64,000 bases of DNA, taken from contig JAFCMP010000547.1 of the NCBI GenBank assembly GCA_017506865.1, forward strand, positions 186,001 to 250,000, written 5' to 3'. The translations under genes were made by a program, and so were the position numbers. Positions 378-62,598 of the stretch are shown here, one piece after another. Origin of the DNA: Tribonema minus. Lineage: Eukaryota; Sar; Xanthophyceae; Tribonematales; Tribonemataceae. Position 1 is the stretch's first letter. Every line of letters starts with the position of its first letter. The notes under the pieces were generated by a model that made no database searches, was not told the origin of the DNA, and saw nothing but the letters and a program-made list of their open reading frames with translations.

Positions 378-1017
378 ATGCTACTACAGCCCCCCACGGC
401 AGCAGTTACAAAGGCAGTAAAGCAACGCTCGCGGCCAACCACAGCCCCCGCCCCTAGCGCCAGACAATCCCCTGTAAACGATGACCGCGCCAGCGGCGGC
501 GGCAGAGCACTGGCAGCAGCGTCGCCGCACCACCGGCCGCCGCAGCCCCCGGACCAGCAGCAGCAGCAGCAGCAGCCGGCGGCACCGCTGCGCGCGCAGG
601 ACCCGCAGCGCAGCGGCGCGCTGCCGCCGCGGCCCGCGTCGGTGACGAGCCAGCTGGCCGCCGCCGCCGCCGCGTCGCGCCACAACGACTTTCCCGCGCT
701 GCTGGCGCTGCTGGCAGGCGAGGAGGGGCGCTTTGCGGGCGTGCTGTACGCGCTGCCGCGGCACGCGCTGGATGCGAACCTGCGCCACGACCCGTACCGC
801 CTGGTCGTGGTGAAGGTGTGCTACGACGACGACGAGAGCGTGGACCTGGACGTGGATCTGGACCGCGTGCGGGAGGAGCTGGGGATGGGCGGCGGCGGCG
901 GCGGCGGCAGCGGCAGCAGCGGCGGCGGCGGCGGCGGCGGCGGCGGTGACGGCGGCGGCGGCGGCGGCGCTCGACAGCAGCAGCAGTGCGTTACCAGCAC
1001 TCAGCAGCAGCTGCAGG

Positions 1018-1053
<36 letters not shown>

Positions 1054-1835
1054 GGCGGCGCGTCGTGCGCGTGACCGCCGCCGAGCACGCCGCCATCACG
1101 CTGCGCGGCGGCGTGCAGTACCGCAACGCGCACGGCGACGTCGCGTCGCAGCCTCTCACCAAGTGGCTCGCGGACGAGGCCGCGTTTCACGCGCTGCTCG
1201 CGACGCGCACCTTCGGGGCGTACCCGCTGTGGAAGTGCTTCGGCGCATGGCGCGGCGCCGCACGCGCGCGCAGATACGCCGCCGTGCGCCGCGCCGTCGC
1301 GGCGCGCCTCGCGCAGGGGCGCGCCGCCGCGCAGCCGACGCTGTGCCGCGTCGCCGCGCTGGTCGCGGAGGCGGTGGCGGCGGGAGGCATCGTCTCAGTG
1401 GCGGCGGCGGCGGCAACAGGCGGTGGTGGAGGGCGTAGCAGGGGCGGCGGCGGCGGCGGCGTGCGCCGCAGCAGCGACTGGCTCGCGCACCTGGGCTCTG
1501 ATCGCGGTAGCAGCAGCGGGAAGGCAGAGTCCGCGCCGTTGGCACTGGAAGCGTTTCTCGACGTGCAGTGGCGTCATCTCACAGGGGCGTTTCACCAGAT
1601 GCTGCAGGGCCTCTATCAGCAGTGCTCCGAAGCGCTGGCGGCGATGGCACGTCACCACCTGGAGTCGCTGGGCCTGATAGGCGACGCCGCGGCGGCGGCG
1701 GCGGCAGTGGCGGCAGCGGCGGCGGCGGAGCGGGCGGCGGCGGCAGAGGCGGCAGAGGAGAGCGACGGAGGCGACGGCGATGCTGCTGCTGCGGCAATGC
1801 TGCTGGCTGACTACAGGGCTGAGACAGAGGCCAAG
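378..1835 (+). CDS. Dynein exon 1: N-terminal tail
   Basis: Runs from the first in-frame ATG to the donor AAG|GTGAGC, phase 0. After a Pro/Gln-rich leader it carries the axonemal-dynein tail block: DPYRLVVVKV, then ITLRGGVQYRN, a PLTKWLADEAAFHALL stretch and YPLWKCFGAWRG. In DNAH3/6/7-type chains the matching block reads like YDLxVVPY...ISARGVTHF...FFRxYRKWKxFxVW. Poly-Gly, poly-Gln and poly-Ala runs interrupt it. The frame stays open past the donor to 1976 only by chance. Confidence 0.75.
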
Positions 1836-6657: not shown

Positions 6658-6706
<49 letters not shown>

Positions 6707-12404: not shown

Positions 12405-12465
<61 letters not shown>

Positions 12466-15400: not shown

Positions 15401-18400
15401 GACGTGGCGCCGGGGACTTGCACCGGGGATCTGCAGTTTTGCTGCGCATCTGAGTGGTGTGTAGTACAGTATTCATTGTAGAGTGCGCTGCAACTGGTGA
15501 TGCTGCCTTGTGACATTCAGCCAATGCACACTTCTGCTCAACTGTGCGCCAACTACATACGGTAAATACAGCAATGCGGAGGTCTGGATGGAGCTCATTC
15601 AAGCTCCAATGGGCCCAGCGCTCGCATTGCACTGGTGTCCCAAGGCTTCAGCAGCGCCGCACAGGCTCGGCATCCTGAGGCAAACGTGCGCCGACACCCC
15701 ACCCCCGCCGCGCAGGCGTGCTGCCACGTGGCGCCGCTCGCGCTGCAGCAGGAGGGCTCCCGGAACCTTCTCGGGAAGCTCAGCAAGGTGCGCGAGGACC
15801 TGGACGCGTGCGCGCGCAGCGCTCAGCGCTGGATGGAGTTCAAGGCGGTGACGTGCCCGCGCCTGCTGGCGCTGCCCGCGCATGACCTCTTCCAGCTGCA
15901 CCGCAGCTGGGCGCAGGGGGTGGTGCAGCTGGGGGGCGGTGGCGGTGCCCTGGATACGCAGGTATGTACGTAAGTGTGCTCTTGGTTAATAAAAGGGTAG
16001 TGGAAAATATAAGCGCCTGCTCGGGGTTTGGCTGCTGCTCACATGTGCCGAACCCAGCGCTTCTTGGGACCTTTGTACGTAGTAATGTATAAGTGAGGAG
16101 CATTTGTATAATATTCTGCATACATACTCGCTACTGTGCGTGCATTATTGTATTTGCTGGAGTCTCTCTAAGAGTATCCTACCAACTTTGCATGAGTTCA
16201 ATACAGCTGTATTTTGTCAACTGTTGATTGTGTACGTAAATGGCCTGCGCCTCAGGCAGACACAGACTGTCAACATGTTGCACATGTTGACTTGCCGTGT
16301 TGACACACCATCGCGACAATAGAGAAGCTGAAGGCGAGAATGCTGGGTAGGATGGATGGCAACCACAGTGCTAAATAACTGGTTGCTGAGCAATGTAGTC
16401 GTCACCATACCAGTCAACAGCAGTGTAAGAGCAAATATGGAAGTGACTGCAGTGAGCCGATGCGAGCGCACTGGCTACAGTTAGGGTTAGGGCTAGAGGA
16501 TAGGGTCAGGGGTAAGATCAAGGGTTAAGGTTATTGATAAGTATATAATATGAGGGTACTGGCAACATGCTCCGTCACAGTGTCAAGGACTCAAATGCAA
16601 CTTTAACTCTGTATGCAGGTGAACTTGCTGTTCCCGGGGGTGGGGGAGCTCATCTACTAAGCTGGAGTTTGCTGTACCAGTCAACCGCAATGTGTGAGCG
16701 GCTATAAAACTGCCCAGGGCGACCCAATGTTAGGGTACTGGCATCATGCTCTATCACCCCAGTCCAAACTGCAACACCACAGTACCCAATTCTGCTCACA
16801 GGTGAACTTGCTCTTCCCGGGGGTGGGGGAGCTCATCTACAGAGCGTGCGATGACGCCGTGCTGCGCGCACGGCTGCTGGAGGCGCGCGGGCTGTCACAC
16901 GCTCAAGCCTCAACACAACAGGTATGTAGGTATGACGTGTCACTGGCAGTGATTCACTGCTATCATCAGCATATCTCAGTATAGCAGGTACTATAATATA
17001 CAAGCATATGGGCATTGCACTCAAGCTTCTGCAACAACAACAGGCACGGCGATTTCACAAGTGTGCTCGAAAACTAGCTGAATTCACAAATGTGCTCAAA
17101 AACTAGCCGAATTCGGTCAGGCGAATTCACAAATGTGCTCAAAAACCACCCGAGTTTGACCACACGGGTATCAGCAGCTCAAGCGTGCTTTGGGTGTTTT
17201 CATAAATGTTCCTGCCCCCACCGGTAGCCGGCACAGGCCTTAAGTGATACCACATTTCAACAAACACCCTGAGCACATTGAAGCATGCTCTATACGAAGG
17301 CCTGGCTTGTGGCCTGATTTCGTAGACACTCTGGCCATCCTCCATGAATACTGTCTCAATGCCTGAATGCATACCCTTGTCAGCGCTCCCATGGCCATTA
17401 GCACCATTGACATGTGCAGTTCCAGCTTCAACACCCCACCTTCCTCAGTGCCATCGCGCGCATTCAGTCCCCCAACAAGGGTCACAACTCTGGACTTGAC
17501 AAGAATCTTGCTGCACCGGCACACAACATTTGAATGCTTTCACGAACATACCTACCTACACCGGGGTATGCATAATTGCCGCTTTCACTAACATACCTAC
17601 CCCCACTGGGGTACTTCTATGTACAATTGCCGCACATCATGCAGACCGCTGGCGTGTGCAGCTCAGGCGCGGGCCTCGAGTCCCTGCTCTTTGGGGTATG
17701 TATAACTGCCGCTTTCACTAAACCTATCCACCCCCATTGGAGCATGTATGTATGGTTGCCGCAAGTCATGCAGACCGCCGGCGTGCGCAGCTGCACTCTT
17801 TGGGGTAGGTATACTTGCCGCTTTCACTCAACCTACCCCCCATTGGGGTACGAATCGCCGTGCAGGTCATGCAGGCCACCGGCGTGCGCGGCTCCGGCGC
17901 GGGCCTCGAAAGCTTGCTCTCTGGGGTATGCACACTTGCCACTTTCACTAACATACCTCCCTCCCCCCGATTGGGTATGTACTCATCACCGCAGGTCATG
18001 CAGACCGCCGGCGTGCGCAGCTGCGCTCTTTGGGGTATGTATACTTGCCGCTTTCACTAAACCTACCCCCCATTGGGTACGAATCGCCGTGCAGGTCATG
18101 CAGACCGCCGGCGTGCGCAGCTCTGGCGCTGGCCTCGAGTCCCTGCTCTTCGAGAGCGCCGTGTCGAACAGCGTGACCGACGGCGTAGAGGCGTGGCTCG
18201 ACGCCACGCAGCAGCGCGTCGTCGCGTGCATGCGCACGTGCCTCGCAGCAACGCTCAGTAAGCTGCGCGACGGCAGCGGCTGGCCCGCCAAGCCCACGGG
18301 GCTCGAGGGGGAGGAGGCGGCGGCGGCGGCCGCGGCGGCCGCGGCGGCGGCAGCGGCGGCGGCGAAGGCCGCGAAGGCAGGGTCCAATGACCACCAGAGC

Positions 18401-21400
18401 GTGTTTACGTCTCGTACAGGTACGGGACGGAGGGGCGTAGGTATGGGGCGGTGGTGCGGTAGTGTGCACAGCGTCTGGATACTCGAACTGGCAGCAGTTG
18501 AGAAGCGCGTTGAATCGAGCTGTCCAGCGCACGTTTTCTTAACATCATCGCACAAGGGCTAGCTACAGCACTGGCAGCACCAGCAGCATCAAGAGGGGTG
18601 GCTGCCAGAAACATATGGCATGTACAGTGCAAAAAAAAAAAAAAAAAGTTCCTTGCAGCCGCACCAGAGGCGATTTTGTACAGACATGGAAGATATGTTG
18701 CCGTCATCGCTAGTAGTTGCCAGCCGGGGTGCTCTGCAGAGCATAGGAGCAACGCAGTACGCGCATTCAGCCCAGCCGGAGGTACCGCAGTGCTCAGAGT
18801 TGCGTGCGCACAACAACACGAGCTACCATGCACTGGCAGCACCCCCTTGCTGCCAGGCACGTCAAGCTGTACGGGCAAGAGCAGCGCGCCAGCCGCCGCA
18901 GCGCGCGCAGTGGGCCGGCTGCTCATGTACAGCACTTTGCGAGCACGCGAGCGCACCATCAATTTCAAGTGCCTTCTGCTTGGACCACTGAATCACACAA
19001 CGCGGTCACGTCTCGACATGCCCCCCCCCCCTGCTCCCAGGCAAGTCCGGCCGCACCGCGCGCACCGGCAAGAGCAGCGCCAGCGGGCGCAGCGCGCGCA
19101 GCGGGCACAGCGGCCGCAGCAGCCAGCCGCGCGTGCACCGCCTGCGCCGCCGCGCCGCCGAGCAGAGCGCGTGCCTCCAGGCGTCGCTGCTGGCGCACCA
19201 CGCGCACTTCACGAGCGCCGCCGAGGCAGCGCTGCTCAGCCCCGAGCCCTCCTTACGACCGCTAGGTCTAGGGCTGGGGGGAGGTAGACCTAGCTTTAGC
19301 AGCGGTGGTAAACCTAGTCCGGGAGGCGCGGCAGCAGCGCTCAGGGGGCTGCTGGAGGAGACCCTGGAGCACGTGGAGGGGTGGGCGGCGACGTGCCACG
19401 ACGCGTCGCTCGACGCGGCGCAGTACCCGCTGCTGTCGGCGTGCGCGCACGCGACGCAGGCGCTGCACTTCCGGGACGTGCTGCAGGACCTGTGCGCAGG
19501 TGCGTACGCGGTCGCAGTGCTCAGCTGCACTACTTCAAGCACTTGAAGTGTTGCGACACAGGCGCTGCACTTCAGCAACGTGCTGCAGGACCTGTGCGCA
19601 GGTGCGTGCGTAGGGTCGCGGAGGGTGGTGGTTGCACTCGCAGTGCTCAGTGACGTGTAGCTATGACAAACACGGCGGGCACAAACAGTGGGCAGTTGTT
19701 GCGATTTACTAAAAAGACACGTCTCCCACGCTCGCAGCACTTGCTAAAAACCCTCAACCACCTATGCCATGCCCTCTCATATCTGCGTGTGAAGGCATTG
19801 ACAGCGGCGCCATAGACACCAGCGGCAGGAGCAGCGACCCGCGCAGCGCGCCGCGGTGGCAGTGCCACCTGCGCTACTACCTCAACGAGAGGGCGGCGCC
19901 AGCGCCCGCCGCCGCCGCCGCAACAGCGCTCAGCAGCAGCAGCAGCAGCAGCGCTCAGGCAGCAGCAGCCGTCGCCGCCGCCGATGACTCCGCGGCAGCT
20001 GCGCCGTATCTGGTGGCCAGCATTGGCCCCTGGAGCGTCGCGTACGGGTGGGAGTACCACGGCACTGCGGAGCGGCTGTGGATCGCGCCGCTGGCGGAGC
20101 GCGCGCTGCTGCACGCGGCGCACTCTGCGCGGCGCGCCGGCGGCTGCGGCGGCCTGCTCACCGCACCCGCAGGTGCGTGTTGGCGTGCGGTGCGCACGGT
20201 GGTGCTCGAGTAGTGGTTGCAGGGAACTCCGATTGACTGTCGCACTTCCTTACAAAGTGTTTGTGTGGCACTTGATGATGTTGTTGATGTGTGTGCGCGC
20301 TGCTGCACGCGGCGCACTCCGCGCGGCGCGGCGGCGGCTGCGGCGGGCTGCTGACGGTGCCCGCAGGTGTGTGCGGGTCTGCCGTGTGGTGGTTGCAGGC
20401 GATGACGCGCTTCTTCATAGAGTGTTCTTGTGGCAGTTGACGTTGGTGTTGATGTGTGTGCGCGCTGCTGCACGCGTGCAGGGCTGCGGTTTGCACGGTC
20501 AATGCAGGCGATGACGCACTTCCTTATGAAGCGTTCGCGTGGCAGTTGATGTTGTTAATGATGTGTGTGTGCGGGCGGAGCGGAGCGCGCGCTGCGACGC
20601 GCCGGCGGGTGCACGTACATGCTGATGTTGGCATGTGCTACAGTACATGTTGCTGGTTTTATTGCTGGCAAGGATGTTCTTCGTCATGAGATACCATACC
20701 ATATCATACCGTACCATATCAACCATGCCATGTACCCGATGTGCGTGATGCACACGACACGCAATCTGCGACAGCGTCAGTGCTACAGTGTCCTGTACCA
20801 CCCGCCTTGAGTTACTGTGTACTTTACCTATGAAACACAAAATATGCAAGTCGTGTACACATGTGCTGTGTCAAACGTGACACATGCGCTATCTGCAGTA
20901 TCGAACGGTCACAGACCGCCAAGCCACCTACAGAAGGGCTTTCAGGAGGACTTCGTCCGCCTCAGAACCCCCGCCACTGTGTACAGCACTGCGTCGGGTT
21001 ACATTTTCCTCAAGCTAACGCGAAGCTGACCACGCCGCCCCTGACCTGCCTGTTTTCCCCCCGCCTTTACACGCTACGACATGCCCCACTCCACACCAAC
21101 CTCCAAACATCCCCCCCCCCGACCCCCCGGCCTTTCCACACTGAGACATGCCTCACGCCATAACCCCCCCCCCCCCCTCCCCGCACCACCACCCCCCCTG
21201 CCTCACAAAAGGCCCCCTGCACTGAGACATGCCTCACGCCACAAACCCCCCTCCCCCCCACCCCCCTCCCACCCCCCTGCCCCAGGCGACGCGCAGTCTC
21301 TCTGCGCGCCGGCGTGGGACGCCGCGGCGGCGTTCGGCCGCGGCATGGCGGTGCTCAGCGCGTCGTCGATCACGTCGCCGCACGCCGTCGCCGCGCTGCT

Positions 21401-24400
21401 GCGGCGCGTCGTCGCCGGCGGCTGCGTGGGCCTCGTGACGCGCGCCGACGCGCTGAGCGCGCTCGCACGCGGCGTCCTCGTGGAGTCGCTGCACGTGCTG
21501 CGCCAGGCGCTGCTCGCGGGGCACGCCAGCGTGGTGCTGGGCGCCGCCGCGGAGGTGCCGCTCGCGTGCGCGCCGCAGCACCCGGCAGTTACAGCAGTTA
21601 CGGGCGGTTACATGCCGGAGCTCACGCAGTGGCGCCTCGCCGCGGCGCCGGGCGCGCGCCCCGCATTCGCGCTGCCCGTGTTTGCGACGCTCGGCGGCGG
21701 CAGCGCGGCAGCGCTCAGCTCCGGTGCGTCGTCGTCATGGCTCGGCGACGGCGCAGCGGCGCCGCTGCCGCTGGCCCTGCGCGTGTCCTTCCGGCCCGTC
21801 GCGGTCGTGGAGCCGTCGGTCGGAACGCTGCTGACGGCGCTGCTGCACGCGCACGGCTGCCGCTACGCCGTGCCGCTGGCGGCGCCGCTGCTGGGCGGCG
21901 TGCGCGCCATGCTGCGCGCCGTCCGCGGCGGCGGCGGCGGCGGCGGCGGTGCGGATGGCGCCGCGCTGCTGCCGCCGCCGCAGCGCGCGCAGCTGCTCAG
22001 TGCGATGGATGACCCGTCTAGCCGACAGGCTGTGTTCAGGTGCAGCTCACAATGGTGTCATTGAAGCAATTGAAACTGTGCGGTGAGTAGGTATGCTGTG
22101 AGCGGTGTTGTGCGTCAGTCCTCGCTGACAAAATCCCCACTGCAGCAGCTGCCATGGGTACCTGCCTAGATTACTCATTGGCCGAATGCGTCCGTAGTTT
22201 ACTCTCATGCGAACTCTCGCACCGTGCAGACTTCAGCAGTGCAAGTCGGCGCAGCGGTGTCCACCGTCGCTTCCCGCTTCCTTTTCCCCTGCTCCACGTG
22301 GCAATGCTCTGGATCCAGCGAATGCAGGCGGGGGATCTCCGTGAGCGGGGGCTGGTGGATGGGAGACTGGGGGTTGTTTGTCTTGCTGTGTATCGCAACA
22401 ATGTGCCGGCTGATCAAGGGGTAGCTTCATCCAGTGCATTCGGCACCAATTGAACGGCACTTGAAGTTCAGGGGACCCTAACCCTCAGATGCATCAGTCC
22501 TGGGCCTCTCCCTACTCCAACCCCCAACACCGCCTGCCTGCGCGCCTGAATCTGACCCTGACCCTAGCACCAATCCCATCCCTACTGCCAGTCCTAACCG
22601 TACAGCCAAATCTAACCCTAATGCCAATCCCAACCCTCCTGCCGCCAATCCTAATCCTACTGCCACCCCTAACCCTAACCCTAACCCTCGCAGGCGGTGC
22701 GCGCGCCTGTGCGCGTCAGTGCTCGCCCGCGAGAAGGGGCGTGCCCTCACCACCGCCGACAGAAAGCTGGGGCTGTCCACGCTGCCGCGCGCGGAGAAGC
22801 GCCAGCTCGCAGAGGGGCTGCTGGCGGCCAGCGAGGCGCGGGTGCTCGCTGCCGCAATGTTGAAGTCGCTGCTTGAAGTTATAAATGGGATGGCGTCAAG
22901 CGGCGCTGGCGCAGCGGCGGCGGCGCCGCCGACGGCTGCCGCGACGCCGCTGTGTGTGAACTGGATCGGCGGCTGTCTGGTGGCGCCGCTGCAGGCGGCC
23001 ATGGCGCCTCTGCAGGACATGGAGAAGGTATGTATGTGCACCTGTTGAACTAGATGCCTACCTACCTTTGTCTTTGTATTTCCATTTTTTGTAGCACGCG
23101 CAACACAGCACAGACGTGCGGAGGAGGTCAGGTAAAGGGGTTAAGAGGTGGAATTTTGGGCGCAACGGCTAACCACTCCTTGTCACCTGCGACGCGCCAG
23201 GTGGGCAAGATGCGGTCGCGGCTGCCGGCGCACATGCAGGCGCAGGTCGACGCCGCGCGCACCACCGCTACGTACCTACCCCCTTAACCATTTACCTAAC
23301 GCCTGCATTCCCGGCCAGGTGGGCAAGACGCGGTCGCGCCTGCCAGCGCACATGCAGGCGCAGGTAGACGCCGCGCGCACCACCGCAGGCCCCGGCGAAG
23401 ACCTGCTCGCCATCTTCGACAGCGGCGGCAGCGGCGGCGCTGGCGGCACCGGCGGCGCCGGCGCCGCCAAGTCCTCCACGACTGCTGCAAATAAGGATGA
23501 GGCGGTGGTGATGGCATTGCTCAGGAGCGCGCTGAGCGCTGGGGGGCTGGTGCCCGCCCCCGAGCAAGTGCGCGCCGCGGTGGCCGTGTGGGAGTCCCTG
23601 TGGAGCTGCCGCGCGCCCGCTGTGATCCTGTGCGGCCCGCCAGGAGTCGGTGAGAGCGGTTACGAGCGGTTACGGGCGGTTACCACGCGGCATTGGGGCT
23701 GGCGGTGGTGAGAAGGCATGCGCGGGTGAAGGGTTGGAGCGACTGATTTTGAGAAAAGCGGTTGAAAGCAGTACGTGTAGGGCTGGCAAATGTAGCCGTG
23801 TGGGAGTCGCTGTGGAGCTGCCGCGCGCCCGTGGTTGTCCTGTGCGGCCCGCCGGGAGTCGGTGAGAGCGATTACGGGCGGTTACGCACGGCGCGTCGGG
23901 GCTGGCAGTTGTGAGAAGTCATACGTGCGCGCGGCAGGCGAAGGGTTGGAGCGACTGCTTTTGAGAGCGGTTACAGGCGCTTTGTTGCGTTAAGGGGGCC
24001 GGCGGTCATTGGGTTTGTGGGTGGGGTAAGGCTTGAAGAGACTGGTATTGGGGCAGGGAGGGCGGAGATGAGCAATTACGCTGTGTGGCAATCTCTGTGG
24101 AGCTGCTGTTGAATGCAGTTGGTGGTCTGCAGCTGGGCCATCAGCTTTATGCACGCCTCTGTCACAGTGTTCACACAGGTTAACCTCGAGCACAGGGCGA
24201 GAGAGAAAGCGTTGCCCGCGCATTCCATCCGAGCACCAAGTCCCCATTCCAGCCCTCACCAAACCCTATAAACCTCACCCATTCCCCAGGCAAGAGCGCC
24301 GTGCTACACTCACTGGCGCACATGGCGCGCTACGTCAGCAACAACATGGCACGTCGCCTCGCTGTCGAAGTGGACAGGATACAAAAAGCCAAGGCAGCAC

Positions 24401-27400: not shown

Positions 27401-27562
27401 CCGCCGGGCGAGCGCCCCAGCAGGCTGGTGGTGCTGGACGGTCCTCTGTCGCGCGCGCTCGAAGGTGATGAGATTTGAATGTATGGGTTTTGAACGTACT
27501 TGTTTAATTATGTCTCACATTCTATGATGAGGCTTTGAAACGCGTGAAGTGCAGGCGAGGGA

Positions 27563-27593
<31 letters not shown>

Positions 27594-29061
27594 GCACGAG
27601 CCGCCGCCGAGCGAGCGCCCTAGCAGGCTGGTGGTGCTGGACGGTCCGCTGTCGAGCGCGCTCAAAGGTGATGAGGCGTTGATCATATCTGCGATGAGGC
27701 CTGGATTACGACTTTAAGCGTGAATCGCAACTGGGCGCGAAGTGCAACTGGGCGCGGCGCGCGAGCTGCCGCAGGGGGAGCGTCCCAGCAGGCGCGTGGT
27801 CCTGGATGGTCCCCTCTTGCGCGCGCTTGAAGGTAGCGTGCGTCATGCAGCACTGCCGATATCAGTGGTTTTGTGAGACCGCTACAAGTAGAAGTGTAAG
27901 CTTGATGAGGATGAAAAGCGCGTGTAAATGCAGCCGGAAGGAGGCGCACAAGCCGCCATCTAACGAGCACCTCAGCGCACTAAAAGTTCCGAGGGTCCTC
28001 TGTCGCGCGCACTTTAAGGTAGTGTGTGCTGCCATGTGCGGTCGCTGGTAAACGCGGTTTGTTTGGACAGCTGGACCGCCCCATCGGTAGGGAGTGCGAG
28101 GGGGGACCCGCTGTCATGAGCGCCACCATGTTGTCAATTGTGCATGCAATTGACGCACTTCGAAAAATTGCTTGGTGCAGTGGTATTCACCGTATGCTTT
28201 GCAGTAGTCTTTTGTAATCGCAGCCAACACATATTGTACTCGGACAAGAACCAACAATATCTCCTACAGGACCATCACAGTCGCCCAACAGCCTTTTTTC
28301 CTCCAGTCTACTTGTAAATGTACGCGCGCCCTTTGCGACCACTGCTGCCCACCACTTCACTAGTCTCGCACGCTTTTCTCGCCCGCCAAATTCTATGCGC
28401 TGCTGCTGCCACCGCCGCTCGCGCGCAGGCATGATCGCCTCGTGCGCTTGGGCGGCGCCGCCAACCGCGAGCCCCCCGCCGCCGCCGCCGACGCGCGCCG
28501 CCTCTGCCTCCCCGAGGGAGCGTGGCTGCAGATGGGCGCGATGCTGCACGTGGCGGCGGAGGCCGTCAACATCGCTCAGCTTGCGCCCAGCACCCTCGCC
28601 GCCGTCGCCATCGTGCCGCTGTCGCCGCCGCGCGACGCCCTCGTCTACAGCCTCGTGGCGGCGTGGGCGGCGCGCGTGCGCGCCGCGCCGTGGCCCGATG
28701 TTGTTAAGTCCACACTGCGCGAGATCATCTGTGCGCCCGGCGCAGAGCGCGGCCGCAGCAGCGGCAGCGGCGGCAGCGTCGCCAGCAACTCAGCGGCGGC
28801 GGCGCCGGCGGCTGAGGTCTTCCCTCCCGTGTCTGAGCTGATTGCGCTCGGCTGCTGCTTTGAGCAGGACGGGCCGCAGTCGTGCCGCTGCGCGCCGGAG
28901 ACGAGCGCAAGCACTGCCGTCGCGCGCGTCACCGCCATGCTGCGCATCCTCGAGGGCATGCTGCCGTGGCTGCCGCAGGATGGCGCAGCCGCGCGCGGCA
29001 CCGCCGCCGGCGCCGCCGCCACCGCTGCAGACGGCAGCGGCGCCATTGGCACCAGCAACGC

Positions 29062-29117
<56 letters not shown>

Positions 29118-31554
29118 GCAGCGGCAGCGGCGGCGGCAGCGGCAGCGGCGGCCAGACCCAGCTGCAGACGCTCGTCTGGCTGATGAGCGTGTACGCGGCG
29201 GGCTGGGGCATGGGCGCGCACCTGCAGGGTGCCGCGGCGCGCGCGGCGTTCAGCGAGTGGGTGCGGGCGCGCGCGCCGCCGTGCGCGCGCGCCGCCCGCC
29301 ACTCGCGACGGCGCCGTCTCGCTCTTCGACTGCACGCTCGACGCGCGCGCCGCGCGCCTCGTGCCCGTGGGCGACGAGTGCCGCGGCGGCAGCGGCGGCG
29401 GTTCCTGGCGCGCGCCGCGCTTCTGGGGCGTCCACCACAGCGAGCTCGCGGGCGCGCTGCCGGCGTGCGTGCTCGTGCCGTCGCCGCGCGTGCGCGCCGT
29501 CGGCGAGGCACTGCTGACGCTCAACTGCAAGTTGAGGCTGAACGTCGCACTACGCGGGCCGCCGCTGTGCGGCAAGACGGCGCTGGCGGCGGCGGTCATG
29601 CGCGCGGCGGGCGCCGCCGCGCCGCACCCCGCCATCATCGCTCTGCTCAACGAGACGCTCGGCGGCAGCAGCGGCAGCGGCAGCAGCGGCAGCGGCAGCG
29701 GCAGCGGGGGCAGCACCAGCGCCGCGCTGCAGCTGTCTACCCAAGAGGATGCGAGCCTGGCCATGATGGAGTCGCTGAGGGCTGGCATGCAGCGCGAGGC
29801 GCGGCGGCTGGCGCCACGCAGCAGCGTGTCCGCTGCTCAGAGAACCAGCGTGTCGGGTACTCAGCGTGGCAGTGTGTCAGGGGCACAACGAGGCAGTGTG
29901 TCAGGTGCACAGCGCGGCAGCATGGCAGGTGCTCAGAGAGGCAGTGTGTCAGGTGCACAACGAGGCAGCATGTCAGGTGCTCAAAGAGGCAGCGCGCCAA
30001 CTTCCCCGACTGCTTTGCAAGGCAAGAGGGCCAGTGCGGGTGTTGATGTCGCAGCAGGCGGCGGCGCGCAACCGTCCGCAATGAGCACTGCCGCCGCTGC
30101 TGCTGCTGCCGCTGCTGCTGCGGCGGCAGCGGCGGCGGCGGCGCCGGGGCGCGCGGCAGCAGACTGGCGCGTCAGCACGTGCGTGCACGTGGATCTGGCC
30201 CGCCACAGCACCGCCGCTCACGTGCTGGACACGATAGAGGCGGGCCTGCAGCGCGAGACTCACGGCGCGCTGCTGCCGCCGCCGGGTTGCGTCGCCACCG
30301 TCTTCATCGACGACGCGCACCTGATGGACGACACAATTGGCGAGATGCTGCGAGGCGCCTTTGAGGCGCCGCTGGCGGCGCTGCCGCCGCGCGTCGTAGC
30401 CCCGGGTGCATCGCGCAAGGCGGCGGCGGCGGCAGCGGCGGCGTCAAGCGCCGCGGACGACGCGGGACGCAGGGCAAGCGGCGTGCTGCCGGCGCGCGTG
30501 CAGGTGGCGCCGGCGTTCGTCGCGGCGGAGCGCGGCGGCGACGCGTACAACACGCTGTGGGACACCAACGCGCTCGCCGTGGGCCGCGACAGCAGCAGCA
30601 GCAGCAGTGGCAGCGGCGGCAGCGGCGGCAGCCGCGCGCGGCTGTGGCAGCGCTTCGTCACCATCTCCCTCGCGGCGCCGGACGAGCACGAGCTGAGCGC
30701 GGTGTTCGCGTCACTCGCGCGCGACGCGCTGCTGGGCGAGGGCCTGCTGAGCACTGCCGCCTCGGACGGCGCCGCGCGCGCCGTCGTCTACGGCAGCGGC
30801 GTCATGCACGCGCTGCCATGCATCGGCCGCATGACGGCGCGCCTGTTCTCCACCATATCCGCCGCCGCCGCCGATGCCGCGGGTGCCGCAGCACCAACTT
30901 CAACTCCAACTTCAACTCTGCATCTGCCACTGCCGAACGCGTGGCGGCTGAACTACGCGGCGATGCTACGGCTGCTGCGCGGCCTGTCGCTGGCGCGCCC
31001 CGCGCACGTCGCCACCGTGTCCGCGCTCGCGCGGCTTTGGTGCCACGAGGTGTGCGCGGAGCTGCTGCCGCGGTGCCCGCGCGCCGCCGCGCCGCAGCGC
31101 GCCGCCATCCTGCACGCCATCACCGACTGCGTGCGCAGGGAGAACGCGACGCTGGGGCTGAGCGACGCGCAGCTGTTGCATCTCGTCGTCAGCGTCGAGG
31201 GGCAGCGCGGCGGCGGCGGCAGCGGCGGCGGCAGCGGTGACAGCGCTCAGAGTGCTGCGGCGCACGTGCCGCTGGTGTGGGCGGACGCCAGCGGTCTGCG
31301 CGCCGTGCAGGTGCACGAGGACAGGGACCGCAAGCGGCTGATACGGTCCGCGACGGCGGCGCGCGGCGCGCAGCCCTCGTCGCCGAGCGCTGCTGCCGAT
31401 GCTGCCGCTGCCACCGCTGCTGCGTCCGCATCTCCCCTGCAGCGTCCCCAGGAGTACATTGAGGTGTGCTCGCAGGAGGAGGACGAGGATGACGCACCGG
31501 GCGCTCCTATTGCCGCCAACAGCCCCAGCTGCAGTCCCAGGGCGGGCGACAGCA

Positions 31555-31592
<38 letters not shown>

Positions 31593-31774
31593 GGCGGCGG
31601 CGGCGGCAGCGGCGGCAGTGGTGGCGGCGGCGGCGGCAGCGTGCGGCCCAAGGGCAGGCTCATCGTTGCCGACGGCGTGCTCCTAGACAGCCGCGACGCC
31701 TACGGCGTGGACGCCCTCGCGCGCTGCCTGCAGTACGCCATCGGCATGCACGCAGTGCCATGGCCCGTCACAAC

Positions 31775-31807
<33 letters not shown>

Positions 31808-34800
31808 CGCTTCAGCGCTGCCGATACTGACGGCGCCGGACGTCTGCAACGTGATGCGCGCCGCGCGGCAGCTCGCGCTGCCGCTCGCGACGCACGTGCT
31901 GGTGCTCGACGACGGCGGCGGCGGCGGCGCGCGCGCGGGCGGCGGCGTCCGCGCCGTCTTTGCGCTCGCAGCGGCGCTGCAGGGCGCCGCGCTGCACGCG
32001 CTGGACGGCTGCCTGGCGCGCGCCGCGTCGCGCGTGCGCGCCGCCGCCGGCGACTTGGAACGCTTCAGGCAGGAGACAACCGCGCGGCATGTGGTGCGTG
32101 CCGCCGTGAGTGACGCCATCGCCGGCCAGCGCGCCGGTCTGGCGGCGACGGCGGCGTGCAGCGGCGGCGGCGGCAGCGGCGGCGGCGGCGGCGTGGTCGG
32201 TCACCCCGTCGTGCTGCTGATGACGAATGCCGCTCAGGCGCTGAGCGATGTGGACGCCAGCGAAGCGCTGCTGCTCAATGCGCTGGCGGCCGATGACCTC
32301 ATCTCGGGGTTCTTCTCGGACGCCGAGCTGCTGCAGCTGCTGACCCCAGCCCCGCCCTCCGCCGCCGCCACTGGCGCAAACGCATCGTCAGCGTCTGCCG
32401 CCTCAGCGCCGGCTGCGAGCGAGCAGGGGCGCGAGCACTGCGGCGCGGAGCTTTACCGGCGCGCCGTGTCGCTGGCGCGCCGCTGGGTGCGTGTGGTGCT
32501 GTGCATGAGCGAAGACAGCGCTCAGGCATTTGCGGCAGCGCTCCACGAGACGACGTGCGCCGGCGCCGGCACCGGCAGCAGCGGCAGCAGCGGCGCAGGC
32601 AGCGGCAGTGGCGGCGGCAGCGGCGATGGCAGAGGCCGTTGCGACCGGCGCGCTGCGACGCTGCTGCGGCGCTGCTCGTGGATGAGGATGGTGCCATGGG
32701 GCCCCAGTGCTCAGGAGCAGGTGACGCGCCAGCTGCTGCTGCCGCCAGTGCTGCCGCCGCCAGGCGTGGTTGATGGCAGCGTGCACGGCAGTCACGTGCA
32801 CCTCATGGGGCAGCTGCTGGCGTATGACGATCATGCGGCAGCGCTCCACGGGGCCACAGGTAAAACGCATGCACGTTTTCAGTGATGCACGTGTCAGTCA
32901 AGGTCTGCTGAAGCGATCTTGACTAACTTGTGGGGTAGTGCACGGCATTCACGCCGTGCGCATGTTGACCAGAGTCTGCTACAGCAGTGTTTTGACTTCA
33001 GGTAATAAACCACATGTTCTCATGCATGGATCATCGAGACAGTCAGCCCTAGGTGTTGTACTGTCAACCCTAGGTATAATACTTCTAATGCAAAGGGACG
33101 AGGGCTGTCCTTGGATGAGCACGAGTAGGTAATTCAAAGCATCTGTCTGAATCCGGAGCCCCCCTCTATGTGCTTCATCACCTCTTGCATACATGAGGTG
33201 CACCCAGTACCACCGTCTCTTCAAAGTACCACTATCATCTCTGCGAACTCAGTACATGTCAGTTGACACCCGTTGTCGCGCCGTCCCTCCCTCCCTCTCT
33301 TGTACGCTCCGGCAGGCGCGACAGAGGCCGCGGCAGCAACAGCAGCGCGCCTCTACGCCGCCTGGATGCGCATCGCCTCCCCTTCCGTCCTGCAGCACGT
33401 GCTGGCAGCAGCGCGCTCCGCCACCGCCGCCGCCGCCGACCCCAACCTCAACGTTGAAGTCACGGGGGGCCTCGAGCTGACGGCGGCGCTGGCGCTGTTC
33501 CGCCGCGCGTGCGCTCAGGGCGCGCGCCGCCTTGCAGCGCGCTCCACCGTGCTGCGGCGCGCGCTCGCCGCCGTGGACGCATGGTGCCTGCTGGGGCGCG
33601 GGCTGGAGCGTCACACGCGGCACGTCCGCATGTTGAGGTTGAAGTTCGACGCCGCGCTCGCCGCGCTCAAGGGCGAGGCGGCGGCCGCGGAGGAGCGGCG
33701 CCGCGCGCTGGCGCAGCGCTTCGCGCAGCAGCGCGGCGACGCCGAGGCGGCGCGCGCGCGCGCGCTGCAGCGGCAGCACGCCGCGGCGCACGCGCTGGCG
33801 CCGCTGGCGCGCGCCTTCGCGGGCGCGTGCGCGGAGGCGGCGGCGCTGCGCGACGACGCGCTGCAGGCGCTGTGCGAGTCGCTGGGGCTGAGCAGCGCTG
33901 TGGCTGCTGCCGCCGCTGCTGCTGCTGGCGGCGGCGGCGGCGCGGTGGCGCAGCAGGGGGCCGACGGCAGCGGCACCGCTGCCGAGGGGCGGGGTGCGGG
34001 CGCTGGGCTTGTGGGTGGCGACAAGTCACCGGCGGCGGCAGCGCTGCATGGGCCGACGGCACCACATCACGGCATTTCATGTGAGTCATGGGCTGAGGTC
34101 AACTTTAAGCTGAGGTCAACTTTAAGTTAAACGTCCATCGTGGACACTTTTGGCTGCATGTTGGTGCTGTCGCAGGCTGAGGAAAAGCATGCGTGCACAG
34201 CAGGTTGCAGCAACTACATTCTCGATGTGTTGTGGTGCTGACCCATCGTGCCTGACCGTCAGTTATATTCGGAGCTCGTTATCCTGTGGCAGACCGGTGA
34301 GTTCCTCGTCTGCACCTAGTTCTAACCCTAATGGCGGGGTTAGCGCCAACTACGAGTGTTCACGCCTATCATACGCTCCACTGTACACTTCAAGTGCTGT
34401 GCCTCCTGCATGCAATTTCCACGGCTTCAGCGCCTGCTCTGTCATTGCGTACGCCTCCCCGCCGCGCCGCAGTCTCCGACCTGCCCTTCGCCGCCGACGC
34501 CTTCTTCCTGCTCGAGAGCTGCGCGATCCTCATGGGCAACCTCACGCGCTACAGCAGCGCTCAGCCAGCGGCAGGCAAGCTGCCCAAGTCCACGGCCATG
34601 CTGCAGACGCTGCTGCTGGATCCCGCGCTGACGGCCAAGCTCGAGGTGTTCTCGCCGGAGGCGCCGCGCAACGCGCGCGCGCTGTCGCTGCTGCTGGCCG
34701 CAGGTGCGTGTGATGGGTCTGTGTGCGTCTGCTGTTTACTTCAATGGGTGCTTAAGAAGCACATGCAGGCGATGTGGAACTGCAAATTAAGAAACTTCAG

Positions 34801-37725
34801 CGAACGTACACGCGACGTGCAGTGGAACCAAAATACTCCGAAATGCAATGATGTTGTTGATGTGCCGAGCGGGTCAGAGGGGTAACGTTAACAGTGAGGT
34901 TCAGAATCAGGCTACTTCGATTCTAGGTACTGCCATCCAAGCAAGCACTACTCATTGTTACACTGCTTTGGCCTCCCATGCTCTTGAAAGCGTCCATCCA
35001 CCTACTTACGTCGTGGCGTTGCCACTTGAAATCCATCACTTGAAGATGAGCCTCGACATCTGTACCTACCAAGCACTGCCATCGCACCACTGATACGACC
35101 CCCCCCCCCCTCCCCCCCATCTGCCCATCCCTCACGCCACAGTCGCAAAGCACTGACACTGAGCACTGCCACCACACAACTGACACGCCCCCCCCCCCCC
35201 TCCCCCCCATCCACTCCTCACGCCTCAATTGCTAAGCGCCGCCAGGACAAAGGCCTGCCGGAAACTGAACCGCTAGAGTCCACCATGGACGGCGCCGCCA
35301 TTGCAGCACCGACACTGAGCACTGCCACCACACCACTGACACGCACCCCCCCCCCCCCCATCTACCCATCCCCTCACGCCTCAGTTGTCAGTCGCCGCCA
35401 GGCCCGAAGCCTGCCGGACACTGAACCGCTAGAGTCCACCGTGGATGCCACCGCCATCGCAGCGCACCACCCTGCCCTCGCGACGCTGCTGCGCTGGCTG
35501 TGCGCGCTGGTGGCGCTGCAGGAGGCGGCAGCGGCGGCGCGCGAGCGCGCGGCGGCGGCGGAGGCGGAGGTCGCGGAGCTCACGGCTAAGGACGCGGCGC
35601 TGGCCAAGGCGGAGCGCTCAGGTTTGTATGCAGCTTGCTAACTCTAATTCCAACCATAAAGCTATTCCTACCCTTACCTGGTCCTCTCATAGGCCAGGTT
35701 TTCCGGTATTGTTGGCTGGGTCGACGGTATTGCTGGCTGGGTCGAGAGGCCTATGCGTGCAACATACGGCTCAGGACGCGGCGCTGGCCAAGGTGGAGCG
35801 CTGAGATCTGTATGCAGCCTGCGTTCTGCTCAGAAAGGGATATATTCCTGTGTCACCTGCTTGGCACATCTGACATAGACCGTATGGAGCGTAGATTTGA
35901 TACAAACAGCTGCAGCGGCACATGCAAGGGCTACGGAGCTCATTGTCATGTGTAAAGCGTTGGCCAGGGTGGAGCGGTGAGGTATGTGCATGCTGTGCCG
36001 TGCATGCTCCTCTCCCCGGTGTCTCGTCATTGCCACCTTCCAGCTGCAGCAAATTGTGGCATGCATATGATCGCAGGCAATAGGCATGTGTAATGTGCCG
36101 TCCATGCTACACGCAGACAAGCCTTCCATCATCGCAATCCATCGCAAGTTGAAACCCACACGAGGACACGACCGCAGCCATCCCACGCCTGTCACCCAGA
36201 ACCGAAACAACCACGACAACTATCATCAACCACCCACCCTCATCCATTACTGACGTCCTGCTACCATCACCACCTCTCGCCCTGCACGCCCGCAGAGGTG
36301 CGCGCCATCGACGCGGAGCTCGACGCCATCATGGCGCGCCGCCAGGCCACGTACGCGCGCAGCAGCGACGTGCGCGGCCGCGCGCCGCTGCTGCGCGACC
36401 TCGCCGGCCGCCAGGGCGCGCTGCGCGACGCCGTCGCCATGTGCGCACAGGAGCTCAGCGACATTGCCGCCGCAGCACGCGTGTACGCAGGCGACGCCGC
36501 CGTCTTCTGCGCGCTGCTGGCCGGCGGCGCCGCGGCGCTGCCGCGCGCCGCGCTGCGCCGCGCGCAGCGCGCCGCGCGCGCGGCGGCGGCGGCGCGCGGG
36601 TGCCCGGTGTCGTCGCGCAGCAGCAGCGGCGGCAGCGGCAGCGGCGGCAGTAGCGAGGGCGGCTCGATGCTGCCAGCGGACACAGACGGCGACACCAGCG
36701 TCGAAGATGCAGAGGTGCCCGATGAAGTAATGCCGGCGGCGCGGCTCGCGCTGCACGACTTCTGCACGGGCGCGCTGACGGGCGTGCAGCAGGTGCAGGT
36801 GTGGGCAACGGCATCGTACGCGGACGCAACAGCGGCATCCGGTGCCGCCGCCGCTGCTGATGCTGCCACGCTCCCCTTCGGCGCGCCCACGAGCGCCGCC
36901 TTCGGCCTCCCCTTCCACCCCGCCTTCGTCGACGCAGCGCTGCTCACCCTGGGCACCCCCCTGGTCCCTCTCCTCGTCGACCCGCGCGGCGTCGCGCTGC
37001 GCTGGCTGTCCAAGGCGTACCAGGGCAGCGCGCTGCTGCCGCCGGTGCCGGCGGCGCGCGTCGTGGCGTCGCTCCTCGCGGACGCCGCGCGCCACGGCCG
37101 CGTGCTGCTGGTGAGCGCCGTGGAGGCGGGCGTGCACGCGCACCTCACGCACTTTCTAGCGGCGCGCACCGTTCTCGGACCGTGCGGCGGCAGCGGCGGC
37201 GCGCTCCCGCACCAGGGGTTCAAACTGGTGCTGCTGGCACGTGCCGTGCCGCACGTTGACAGCGGCGGCGGCGGCGCTGCTGCTGCGGGCGGTGGGGCGC
37301 ATGGGGGCGCTGCCGCACTGCAGCAGATTGGCAGCTGCCCTGCCGCGATGGCGGCGGTGCAGGTCATCCGCTTCGATGCGGAAACCGGCACTGCCGATGG
37401 GGGCGTGTCTGCTGTGTCCCGCGCTGACACTGATGGAGCCACAGCTGCGCTAGCACCGCATACAGACAGTCCATCACCACTAGCAGCGCCAACAGCAGTG
37501 CAGCAGCAGCAGCAGCAAAGTGGCGGCACGGCAGCGGCAGCAGACACAGCGGCGAGCGAGTGGGAGCGCGAAAGAGCGCGTGCGCGCTACCGCAGCGAGC
37601 TCGTCAGCTGCACCGGCTACCTGCAGCAGGCGCACCAGAGCGTCCTCGACGTGCTGAGCCGCGATGAAGTCTCACTTGAAGACGGAACTTCAACAAGTCA
37701 CGGCAGCGGCGTCGCACGTGGCGGC

Positions 37726-37756
<31 letters not shown>

Positions 37757-40652
37757 GCGCAGCGTGGGCCGGCCCTACGCTGCAGCACACTGGCACGCTC
37801 TCCACGCTGTGCGAGCAGCTGTTTGCCTTCAAGGCGGCGCTGGAGCGGTCCCAGGCGCAGGTGCTCAACTGCAGGGAGAAGCTGGCACAGCTGAGCGCTG
37901 ATGCGGTAACAGACGTAACCGACGTAACTGTCGCGGCGGCGCCGCCGGCGCAGCGCGCAGTGCGCGACATCGTGCAGCGGGTCGCCGGCGCCATGGCGGC
38001 GTGCGGCTTGCCCTGCGAGACATGCGATCCCGTGTCAGCGATCATGCTGGAAGCGCAGGCCGCCGCCGTCGCTGCTGCTGCCGGTACTTCCGACGGAGCT
38101 GCCGCTGTGCACAAGGCAGTGCTGCACCTGTGTGCTGTGCTGAGGACGCGCCTCCCACCATCGCACGTCTGGCTGGTGACCCTTGCGGCGCTGGCAGCAC
38201 TGGAGCCGGCGAGGGTCGGCGGCACCCTGTGGCAGCTGATGCTCGCGGCGCTGCGCCTTTCGCATGGGCGCATACACCCGCACAGTCGCCAGCAGCGGCA
38301 GCAGCAGCAGCAGCAGCAGCAGTGCTTGCCCCCAGAGTCAACTGGTGCAGAAGGCACTCCGGGCATCAGTGCTCAGATGACTGCCGCTGCTGACACTGAG
38401 CAACCATGCCAAGGCGCCGAAGACACAGCAACGCCGGAAGCGCTCGCCTATGCTGCTGAAGTCACCGAACTAGTGGGCATGCCCCGATCGTCCAGCGATG
38501 AACATGAAGAAGATGAAGAGGAGACGGACATGCGCAGCGTGCGACTCTCCACGGACTCCGGCGAATCGGGCGCGGGCCGCGCGCAGCAGGAGGCGGCGGC
38601 AGCGGAGCGGTTGCGGCCGCACCTGTGGGACCTCACCTTTGACCGCCGCGGCTGGGACAGTGGCAGCAGCGCTGGCGGCAGCACCGCCGGCAGCGCCCCT
38701 GCTGACAAGCCTGACAGCAGCGGCAGCAGCAGCAGCAGCGGCGGTGGTGCGTGTCAGGAAGGCGGCAGCACTGATGCTGCGGTGAGCGGAGCCCTGCTGC
38801 AGCGGTTGCTTGACCATCAGGCAACGCACGCGGAGCCCTGGGCGGCGTGGCTGCAGCAGCTGCGGGTGCAAGCGGAAGACCGCGCCGCTGCGGCAATAGC
38901 GCGGACTTTGGCACTGCCGCCGTGCTCCGTGGCCGACGGCGCTGGCTCGCTGGCCGGTCTCATGGCTATCGCCGCACTCCAACCGGCGCTCCTGTCAGAT
39001 CTGTTGAGCAATGCTGCAGTGCTGACGGCCATCGCCGCCGCGCCGTCTACGGCGGCGGCGCTGCGCGTTGCTGCGGCGAGCCCCGCGGCGCTGCTGCGGT
39101 CCGCGCTGCCGCTGCTGCCGGAGCGCATCGCCGCCGTGGGCAGCGCTCGTCCGTTGACGATACTGCTGCCGCAGTCCATTGACTGGCACTTCTTCTCGCC
39201 GCTGGCGGAGATCGAGGCGGCGGCGGCGGCGGCGCGCGTCACGCTGGCCGTCGTGGACGGCTCGCGGCCGCTGCACCTGCGCGTGCCGCGCGGTCTCGTG
39301 GTGCAGCTCAAGGGTGCAGTACTGAGCGGCGGCGGCAGCGGCGGCGGCAGCGCCGGCGGCGGCAGGCGCAGCGGCAGCAACAGCGGCAGCGGCGGCGGCG
39401 GCGGCGGTGCCCTCCGTGATGCCGCCGCGGGGGCGGCGTTGAACATGGCGCGCACCGCCTGGGACGTCATGCAGGAGGCGTACAGAGAGGGCGGCTGGGT
39501 TGTTATTCAGGACCCCGGCGTACTGGTCGACCACCTGATCATCATCGGCGACCTCATGGCGCGCCGCGACGGCCTTGTCCGCGCCTCCACGCGCGCGGCG
39601 ACGCACGCTGTCGCTGCCTTTGACACTGCCGCCAGCGGTGGCGGCGGCGGTGACAGCGGCGGCGCGTCAGACGCTGCTTCCGCTGACGCTGCTGCGGGCA
39701 CAGACACTGCTGCCGCTGCTGGTGCTGCTGGTGGCACAACGTCATCAACCGCAGCAGCAGCGGCGGCGGCGGCGGTGGCGGCGGCTGCAGCGGCACAGGC
39801 TATCGCGGCGGCGGCGGCGCATGAAGCGGGCGGCGCGCGTGTGTTCGCGACGCGCGCGCAGCCGAATCCTCTGCACCGAGTCCTGGGGGAACACGCTGGC
39901 GCGCTGCCGCAGCGGCCGCAGGATGTGGCCCTCATTGTCTCGCGAATGCTGGACACCAGTACGGGCGCTGCTGCTGCTGCCGCTGCTGCTGCCGCAGCGG
40001 GCGGCGCGGTGCGGCAGTCACTGGCGCGTGCGCCGCACCCCGACTTCCGCTTGATCCTGCTGTGCGCAGCGGCATCAGCGGCGCCTGGGGCAATCCTTGG
40101 TGACAGTGAGCTGTGCTGGTGGCAGCGCGACTGCGCAGGCGCCGCCGCCATTGACAGCGGGCGTCGCAGCCGCTGCAGCGCCGAGACTGCTGATGGCAGC
40201 GGCAACGCTGACTGCAGCGACATTGAAGGCAGTAGCGCTGGTAGCGTGGTAGCTGGTGGTGATGGCATTGACACTGCTGTCAGCACCCATGTATGCGCTG
40301 ATAGCAGCGACGACTGCAGTGGCTCCAATGCGGCCCTGGCCATGTGCTCAGCGTTGCTGCGGCGGGAGCTGGCACCCGCGCCATACCTCGACGCGACCGC
40401 AGCAGCGCAAGCCGTGTGTCCGGATGAGGTCGTGGCCTGCCTCGCCAAGTTCATGATGACAGAGCTGTGTGCGCAAAGCGGCGGCACAACCTCTACGCCG
40501 AATTCCGCCACATCGTCACCCGCGGCACTGCCGCCGGACGTGGCGGCGGCGGCGGTCAGGGCAGCAGCAGTTGAAGTTGACGTGCTCGCGCTGGCGCGCG
40601 TCATGCACGAGCTTGACACTAGCAAGCGCGACAGGCCGCAGGCGCTGCGCGC

Positions 40653-40699
<47 letters not shown>

Positions 40700-55057: not shown

Positions 55058-62598
<7,541 letters not shown>

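Follow-up and report, generated by a model that had tools for sequence, protein, structure and literature searches.

In working dyneins, ATP hydrolysis at the first AAA module of the motor ring (AAA1) is taken as the engine, and cytoplasmic dyneins mutated in the P-loop lose motility. Here, a dynein heavy chain (DHC) gene of the xanthophyte Tribonema minus is described whose AAA1 site is destroyed at three motifs. It lies in a window of 64,000 nucleotides (the whole stretch of DNA that was analysed; GenBank assembly GCA_017506865.1, contig JAFCMP010000547.1, positions 186,001 to 250,000), where it occupies around 0.5-40.9 kb on the plus strand in spliced form. The window is part of contig C544 of the 158-Mb genome; C-numbers such as C523, C149, C113a or C90 are working labels for contigs or loci of this same genome, and coordinates given alone are those of the window.

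The canonical axonemal DHCs and vertebrate DNHD1 are the described systems with which the locus is compared. Like the former, it has a tail followed by a linker and AAA modules, with a putative stalk placed between AAA4 and AAA5, and it matches the Pfam models DHC_N2 and AAA_6 above their cut-offs; the remaining motifs follow one another along the gene in dynein order (by eye). Unlike canonical axonemal DHCs, it has lost Walker A, Walker B and sensor I of AAA1 and Walker A of AAA4, and its product, with around 6100 residues in the gene model, is enlarged by many runs of Ala, Gly, Gln and Ser and has a reduced C-terminus. The likeness to DNHD1, compared by description only, is that of a dynein-related heavy chain with a flagellar role beside a normal set (excerpts of PMC8754002 and PMC9916431): in the former, DNHD1 is described as an orphan, perhaps on its way to becoming a pseudogene, and the latter links it to malformed sperm flagella.

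The AAA1 site and the other nucleotide sites

AAA1 is encoded by an entry exon (19795..20172, plus strand as all exons of the gene), which reads YGWEYHGTAERLWIAPLAERAL and whose 3' end is the altered Walker A (TAPAG), and by a core exon (21286..22039); both splice in matching phase over GT..AG. The joined sequence reads YGWEYHGTAERLWIAPLAERAL...GGLLTAPAG/DAQSLC...AGGCVGLVTRADALS...PVFATLGGG...LRVSFRPVAVVEPS. In alignment with the AAA1 modules of the same genome, Walker A is APAGDAQS in place of GPAGTGKT (DAQS for TGKT, the Lys being lost), Walker B is GLVTRAD (near 21426-21449), with Thr-Arg in place of Asp-Glu, and sensor I is FATLG (near 21667-21700), with Gly in place of Asn; the core exon further contains FRPVAVVEP near 21790. 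A reading of the sequence alone (hereafter the sequence-only reading) had already proposed the loss of the two Walker motifs, and this is borne out by the alignment. Its statement that the rest of the domain is kept stands insofar as the domain is still recognised by AAA_6, but it had missed the loss of the sensor-I Asn.

The intron dividing the former P-loop (20173..21285) carries a partial copy of the 3' end of the entry exon. An alternative exon restoring the P-loop, which would have overturned the sequence-only reading, was not found there: a sequence scan of 20170-21300 revealed no GK[ST] in any of the plus frames. Within 0.5-40.9 kb, the sole contiguous [AG]xxxxGK[ST] in the plus frames is that of AAA3 at 29556.

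AAA2 keeps an intron-split Walker A (GPPGVGKS) and the Walker B VVLDGP, and AAA3 keeps Walker A (GPPLCGKT, 29556) and Walker B (VFIDDAH). In AAA4, Walker A is lost; the lysine loss alone is not special, because the canonical DHC C113a has its AAA4 Walker A Lys replaced as well (by Arg). That the AAA1 core exon is free of stops is weak evidence, since 64 of 500 dinucleotide shuffles are also stop-free, whereas none of 500 shuffles each reproduced the open frames of 29283-32859 and 36296-40863 (around 1190 and 1520 codons).

Domain identity and relationship

Pfam profiles were run on exon-joined, insert-trimmed pieces of the predicted protein. The linker piece, which includes part of exon 13608-13750, matches DHC_N2 above its cut-off (E=1e-13, 51.4 bits), and the AAA1 piece matches AAA_6 at E=3e-6, its 26.9 bits lying just above the cut-off of 25.2, such that the assignment of the joined exons to AAA1 by the sequence-only reading is upheld. 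The other modules score lower: AAA2 matches generic AAA P-loop models and, weakly, AAA_7 (best AAA_16, E=1.6e-4, under its bit cut-off), AAA3 matches AAA_7 (E=1.5e-5, 25.1 bits, under the cut-off of 25.8, and weak outside the motifs), AAA5 matches AAA_9 (E=7.1e-5, under its bit cut-off), and AAA6 is marginal for Dynein_heavy (E=0.063). The AAA4 and stalk pieces gave no dynein match in Pfam; the stalk and the microtubule-binding domain (MTBD) were recognised by eye. In six-frame searches of the genome with AAA_6, AAA_9 and DHC_N2, the window locus was not among the reported matches; in the case of AAA_6, single exons of the gene are therefore too divergent.

Searched against solved structures with phmmer, linker plus AAA1 matched 19 distinct chains at E<=0.01, the best being 9y6s_6k, 'IDAa heavy chain' (2.6e-10). 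Fourteen of these chains are named axonemal, flagellar, or outer- or inner-arm, four are 'dynein heavy chain, putative', and one bears a radial-spoke label; none of the 19 is named cytoplasmic dynein. The AAA1 part aligns in order with AAA1 of 9y6s_6k and is weak on its own (i-Evalue 0.042). These matches lend weak support to a relationship with the axonemal type. Matches of the tail exon to the DHC chains 9y6s_6z (E=0.011), 8glv_Mm (E=0.033) and 9e5c_6c (0.18) are about as weak as that to a pollen allergen (0.05), and the tail therefore decides nothing on kinship. The untrimmed AAA5-6 and AAA3-4 exons retrieved 7 and 50 chains, respectively, with no dynein heavy chain among them, and were set aside as low-complexity noise.

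In a tree of AAA1 with 15 rows, the window gene is unplaced, with an end branch of around 8 changes per column. Its AAA1 identity is highest to two other divergent dyneins of the genome, C523 (111/362) and C149 (103/355). A sister relation to these was nevertheless dropped, the rows being alanine-rich and long-branched and the tree leaving the window gene unplaced.

Selection on the exons

Partial copies of exon ends, often including the splice site, are situated in the adjoining introns of 12 of the 27 exons examined (e.g., at 3783-3871, 4957-5041, 7913-8032, 20294-20386, 23792-23966, and 27581-27675). Similar intronic copies exist in the dynein genes C113a (16 pairs), C523 (9), and C508, and none were found in C90. 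It seems that short stretches spanning exon-intron borders tend to be duplicated locally in this genome.

If an exon is constrained and its copy is free, the neutral rate of mismatches between them is expected for codon position 3, and about half of that for positions 1 and 2. The main set comprised 18 pairs from 10 exons (76-95% identity; pairs from one exon are not independent), and mismatches at codon positions 1, 2, and 3 amounted to 30/388, 27/385, and 62/383 (chi-square p 2e-5). The base rates of the flanks, which include some pairs dropped later for short exon overlap, predict 61.6, 66.4, and 58.2 mismatches instead, and the intronic flanks of the same copies (128/742 mismatches) lack a three-base period (p 0.15). 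The excess at position 3 persists with one pair per exon (24/251, 14/248, 39/248; p 0.001) and is found in the tail exons (13/173, 11/173, 32/170). A first, wider set of 22 pairs gave 47/512, 36/511, and 88/504; it included exon 35385-35621, which was dropped from the main set for its uncertain start, and the filters for distance, length, complexity, and identity were changed between the two sets. The copy of the AAA1 entry exon failed the filters of both sets and was compared separately; at codon positions 1, 2, and 3, with 24 sites each, it differs from the exon at 0, 2, and 5 sites. For the AAA1 core exon, no intronic copy could be used. For exon 27131-27464, the last before the frame breaks described below, 6/74, 8/73, and 12/73 are too few to decide.

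The same comparison in the canonical DHC C113a yielded 27/291, 22/292, and 50/286 (flanks 102/477), and in C523 22/166, 12/166, and 29/168 (flanks 54/342), the contrast at position 1 being weaker in the latter. Coding segments of the comparison genes (C113a, C523, C90) were called by codon score, and C90 gave no pairs. Hence the exons from the tail to AAA2 have been under purifying selection, similar to that in a canonical DHC of the same genome, and long-standing decay is rejected for this part by the position-3 excess. The selection evidence covers tail to AAA2, not every residue of AAA1 and not the rest of the ring; the further exons rest on their long open frames. The earlier claim of a selected loss instead of decay accordingly finds support from tail to AAA2; downstream, usable copies are missing.

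Frame discontinuities near AAA2

The sequence-only reading had all splice phases in agreement, which is true at AAA1 but not throughout the gene. Exon 28429..29282, encoding the C-terminal part of AAA2, is out of phase by one base with the preceding exon (junction 27464|28429). Its splice-consistent frame begins LEG-MIASCAW, resembling by eye the AAA2 helix after Walker B, and hits a stop near 28838; the conserved frame probably shifts within the first around 65 bases (around 20 codons) of the exon, a spot placed by eye and not fixed by the codon score. A second change of the conserved frame, back again, is accompanied by an imperfect tandem duplication (20 + 16 bases, 29261..29296), which was found by eye and is absent from the output of the tandem-repeat scan at the threshold used. 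The same exon continues in another frame (29283..32859) with AAA3 and AAA4, assigned by motifs and, for AAA3, by the AAA_7 match. The segment after the duplication, DGAVSLFDCTLDARAARLVPV, looks, on inspection by eye, like the connector between AAA2 and AAA3 in other dyneins; a candidate intron at 29281-29392 would keep the frame, is weak, and would remove this segment. The two discontinuities may represent an assembly error in very G+C-rich sequence, unrecognised splicing, or recent lesions, and the gene can be taken as intact only once they are accounted for.

Other dynein genes of the genome

The six-frame search yielded 59 AAA_6 matches, which were grouped into 15 loci besides the window gene. 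In 12 of these, AAA1 Walker B is canonical throughout (12/12), and Walker A is whole in nine; in C90 and C146c an intron interrupts it, and in C537 it lies outside the fetched exons; from C525, only the second half of AAA1 is available. As a correction to the sequence-only reading, at least two further DHCs of the genome, C523 and C149, have a broken AAA1: both keep the P-loop, but Walker B is broken (ACLSAPQR and ACLEDVDA, respectively) and the sensor-I Asn is lost. They thus share with the window gene the loss of AAA1 Walker B and sensor-I Asn, and differ from it in the retained AAA1 Walker A. In all three genes, Walker A is retained at both AAA2 and AAA3, as are the acids of AAA3, whereas the usual position of the AAA4 acid does not hold one.

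C149 (C149:5000-13500) is a divergent dynein with the AAA1 Walker A GAPGAGKS and an AAA_6 match (E=8.7e-31) far better than that of the window gene. C523 (C523:647100-686999, minus strand) is likewise divergent; immediately upstream of its motor, a separate gene model encodes kelch repeats, unlike the tail of the window gene. Kelch N-termini are given as the mark of the third outer-arm chain in excerpts of PMC12338079. Since a canonical gene near the same class is also present (C146a, which best matches the gamma chain of Tetrahymena and the alpha chain of Chlamydomonas), C523 is probably an additional copy that has diverged. At C385:13917-16275 and C525:336236-344500, there are further partial matches to DHC_N2 or AAA1, which may be parts of one or two more dynein genes.

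Gene organization and neighbouring features

The N-terminal tail begins with an exon rich in low-complexity sequence (494..1835; gene model, weak DHC tail matches), followed by seven further tail exons in matching phase (3395-3666, 5133-5301, 6210-7004, 7644-7844, 8735-8946, 11680-13018, and 13608-13750; gene model), in all of which GC3 exceeds GC1 and GC2. The linker (14348-14697 and 15716-15961; DHC_N2 on the joined piece) is separated from the AAA1 exons by three exons of the gene model (18095-18419, 19041-19265, 19338-19499). After AAA1, the exons of the AAA1 lid and AAA2 entry (22694-23027, 23319-23649) end in GPPGV of the AAA2 Walker A, which is completed to GPPGVGKS in 24290-24611; 25499-25673 and 27131-27464 (with the VVLDGP Walker B) complete this series of AAA2 exons. 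The putative stalk coiled coil and microtubule-binding region comprise 33316-33993, 34473-34703, and 35385-35621 (by eye; the start of the last exon is uncertain), and the last exon (36296..40863) holds the end of the stalk, AAA5 (PLLVDPRGVALRWL; AAA_9 match), and AAA6 (GGWVVIQDPG, HPDFRL) up to the end of the open reading frame (ORF).

Inside AAA3, a coding minisatellite is situated at 29821-29994 (24-base unit, around 7 repeats, GSVSGAQR by eye). Introns of the gene model contain TTAGGG-type arrays of around 15 units at 4560-4653 and 11505-11596. From the ORF end in the 3' direction, no strong codon score was found before an HSP70 gene on the minus strand (55061-61901), of which two exons match Pfam HSP70 (E=6.8e-39 and 9.1e-45), the others being called by codon score.

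Interpretation and alternatives

The loss of three AAA1 motifs in a gene that has been under purifying selection from tail to AAA2 suggests that the window gene is a pseudo-motor dynein, serving not as a motor but as a scaffold, clamp, or regulator. The full reading, that the locus encodes an axonemal-type DHC turned pseudo-motor, is assigned a probability of roughly 0.55. Its AAA1 would neither bind nor hydrolyse ATP; the linker would not be primed without ATP binding at this module, and there would therefore be no power stroke. As linker, ring, and a putative stalk are still encoded, the simplest role would be that of a non-stroking, microtubule-anchored component of the flagellum, where the protein might sit as a scaffold, clamp, or brake, and nucleotide at AAA2 or AAA3 would at most set its state. 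A structural or regulatory role, as had been proposed from the sequence alone, would agree with this.

Several observations weigh against the pseudo-motor reading. It rests on the genome sequence of one species, and if the two discontinuities of the frame near AAA2 are real and not removed by splicing, the protein would be truncated. The ORF stops around 270 residues past HPDFRL, the C-terminal domain being apparently reduced, and the MTBD is a by-eye assignment with no Pfam match. The exon-copy signal is weaker in the motor-side exons (14348-27464) alone (17/215, 16/212, 30/213; p 0.04), the test is silent after 27464 for want of a usable pair, and the pair of exon 35385-35621, with its uncertain start, shows no excess at position 3 (6, 3, 4).

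The phase mismatch at 27464|28429, the duplication at 29261-29296, the stop of the splice-consistent frame near 28838, and the end of the exon-copy test before the breaks would all fit a recently disabled gene: a divergent dynein, after long selection, would have turned into a pseudogene in this strain, inactivated by the two breaks. Coding constraint in the exons upstream of the breaks and the two long downstream frames, unmatched in the shuffles, speak against it; the simple sequence around both breaks is very rich in G+C, so that an assembly error or a missed splicing event is plausible there, and the loss of the AAA1 motifs should predate them by far. Recent breakage is considered somewhat unlikely. 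An orthology to DNHD1, the orphan dynein-related heavy chain needed for vertebrate sperm flagella, would agree with the general kind of gene (a degenerate DHC beside a canonical set), but the AAA1 tree, with its end branch of around 8, cannot place the gene, and a different axonemal DHC might just as well have decayed independently; we regard this orthology as improbable. Among the solved-structure matches of tail and linker plus AAA1, no chain is named DNHD1.

Very improbable is an active dynein of unusual kind driven by AAA3 (or AAA2). All three divergent DHCs keep Walker A at AAA2 and AAA3 together with the AAA3 acids, which would fit such a motor, but hydrolysis at AAA3 is a supposition, AAA3 matches only weakly beyond its motifs, and AAA1 is said to drive dynein mechanochemistry (excerpts of PMC12338079). 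Tentatively, and with less than even confidence, the genome may encode at least three non-stroking DHCs that abandoned AAA1 and kept the AAA2 and AAA3 sites. These would act as structural rungs in the axoneme or as microtubule clamps gated by nucleotide, and the window gene would be the most extreme of them, having lost ATP binding at AAA1 altogether.

Among the papers listed in the literature searches (with the beginnings of abstracts), none dealt with a dynein with a dead AAA1 in an alga or protist. By comparing exons with their intronic copies, selection can be sought even in the absence of a sequenced relative. If the pseudo-motor reading is true, a selected full-length dynein without AAA1 hydrolysis would reveal what the ring, linker, and stalk can do with no engine, and it would provide a natural experiment to set next to the orphan DNHD1; whether the latter is a ghost gene or a working protein is debated in excerpts of PMC8754002. 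Three such genes, all with AAA2 and AAA3, would make regulation by AAA3 testable apart from the motor cycle.

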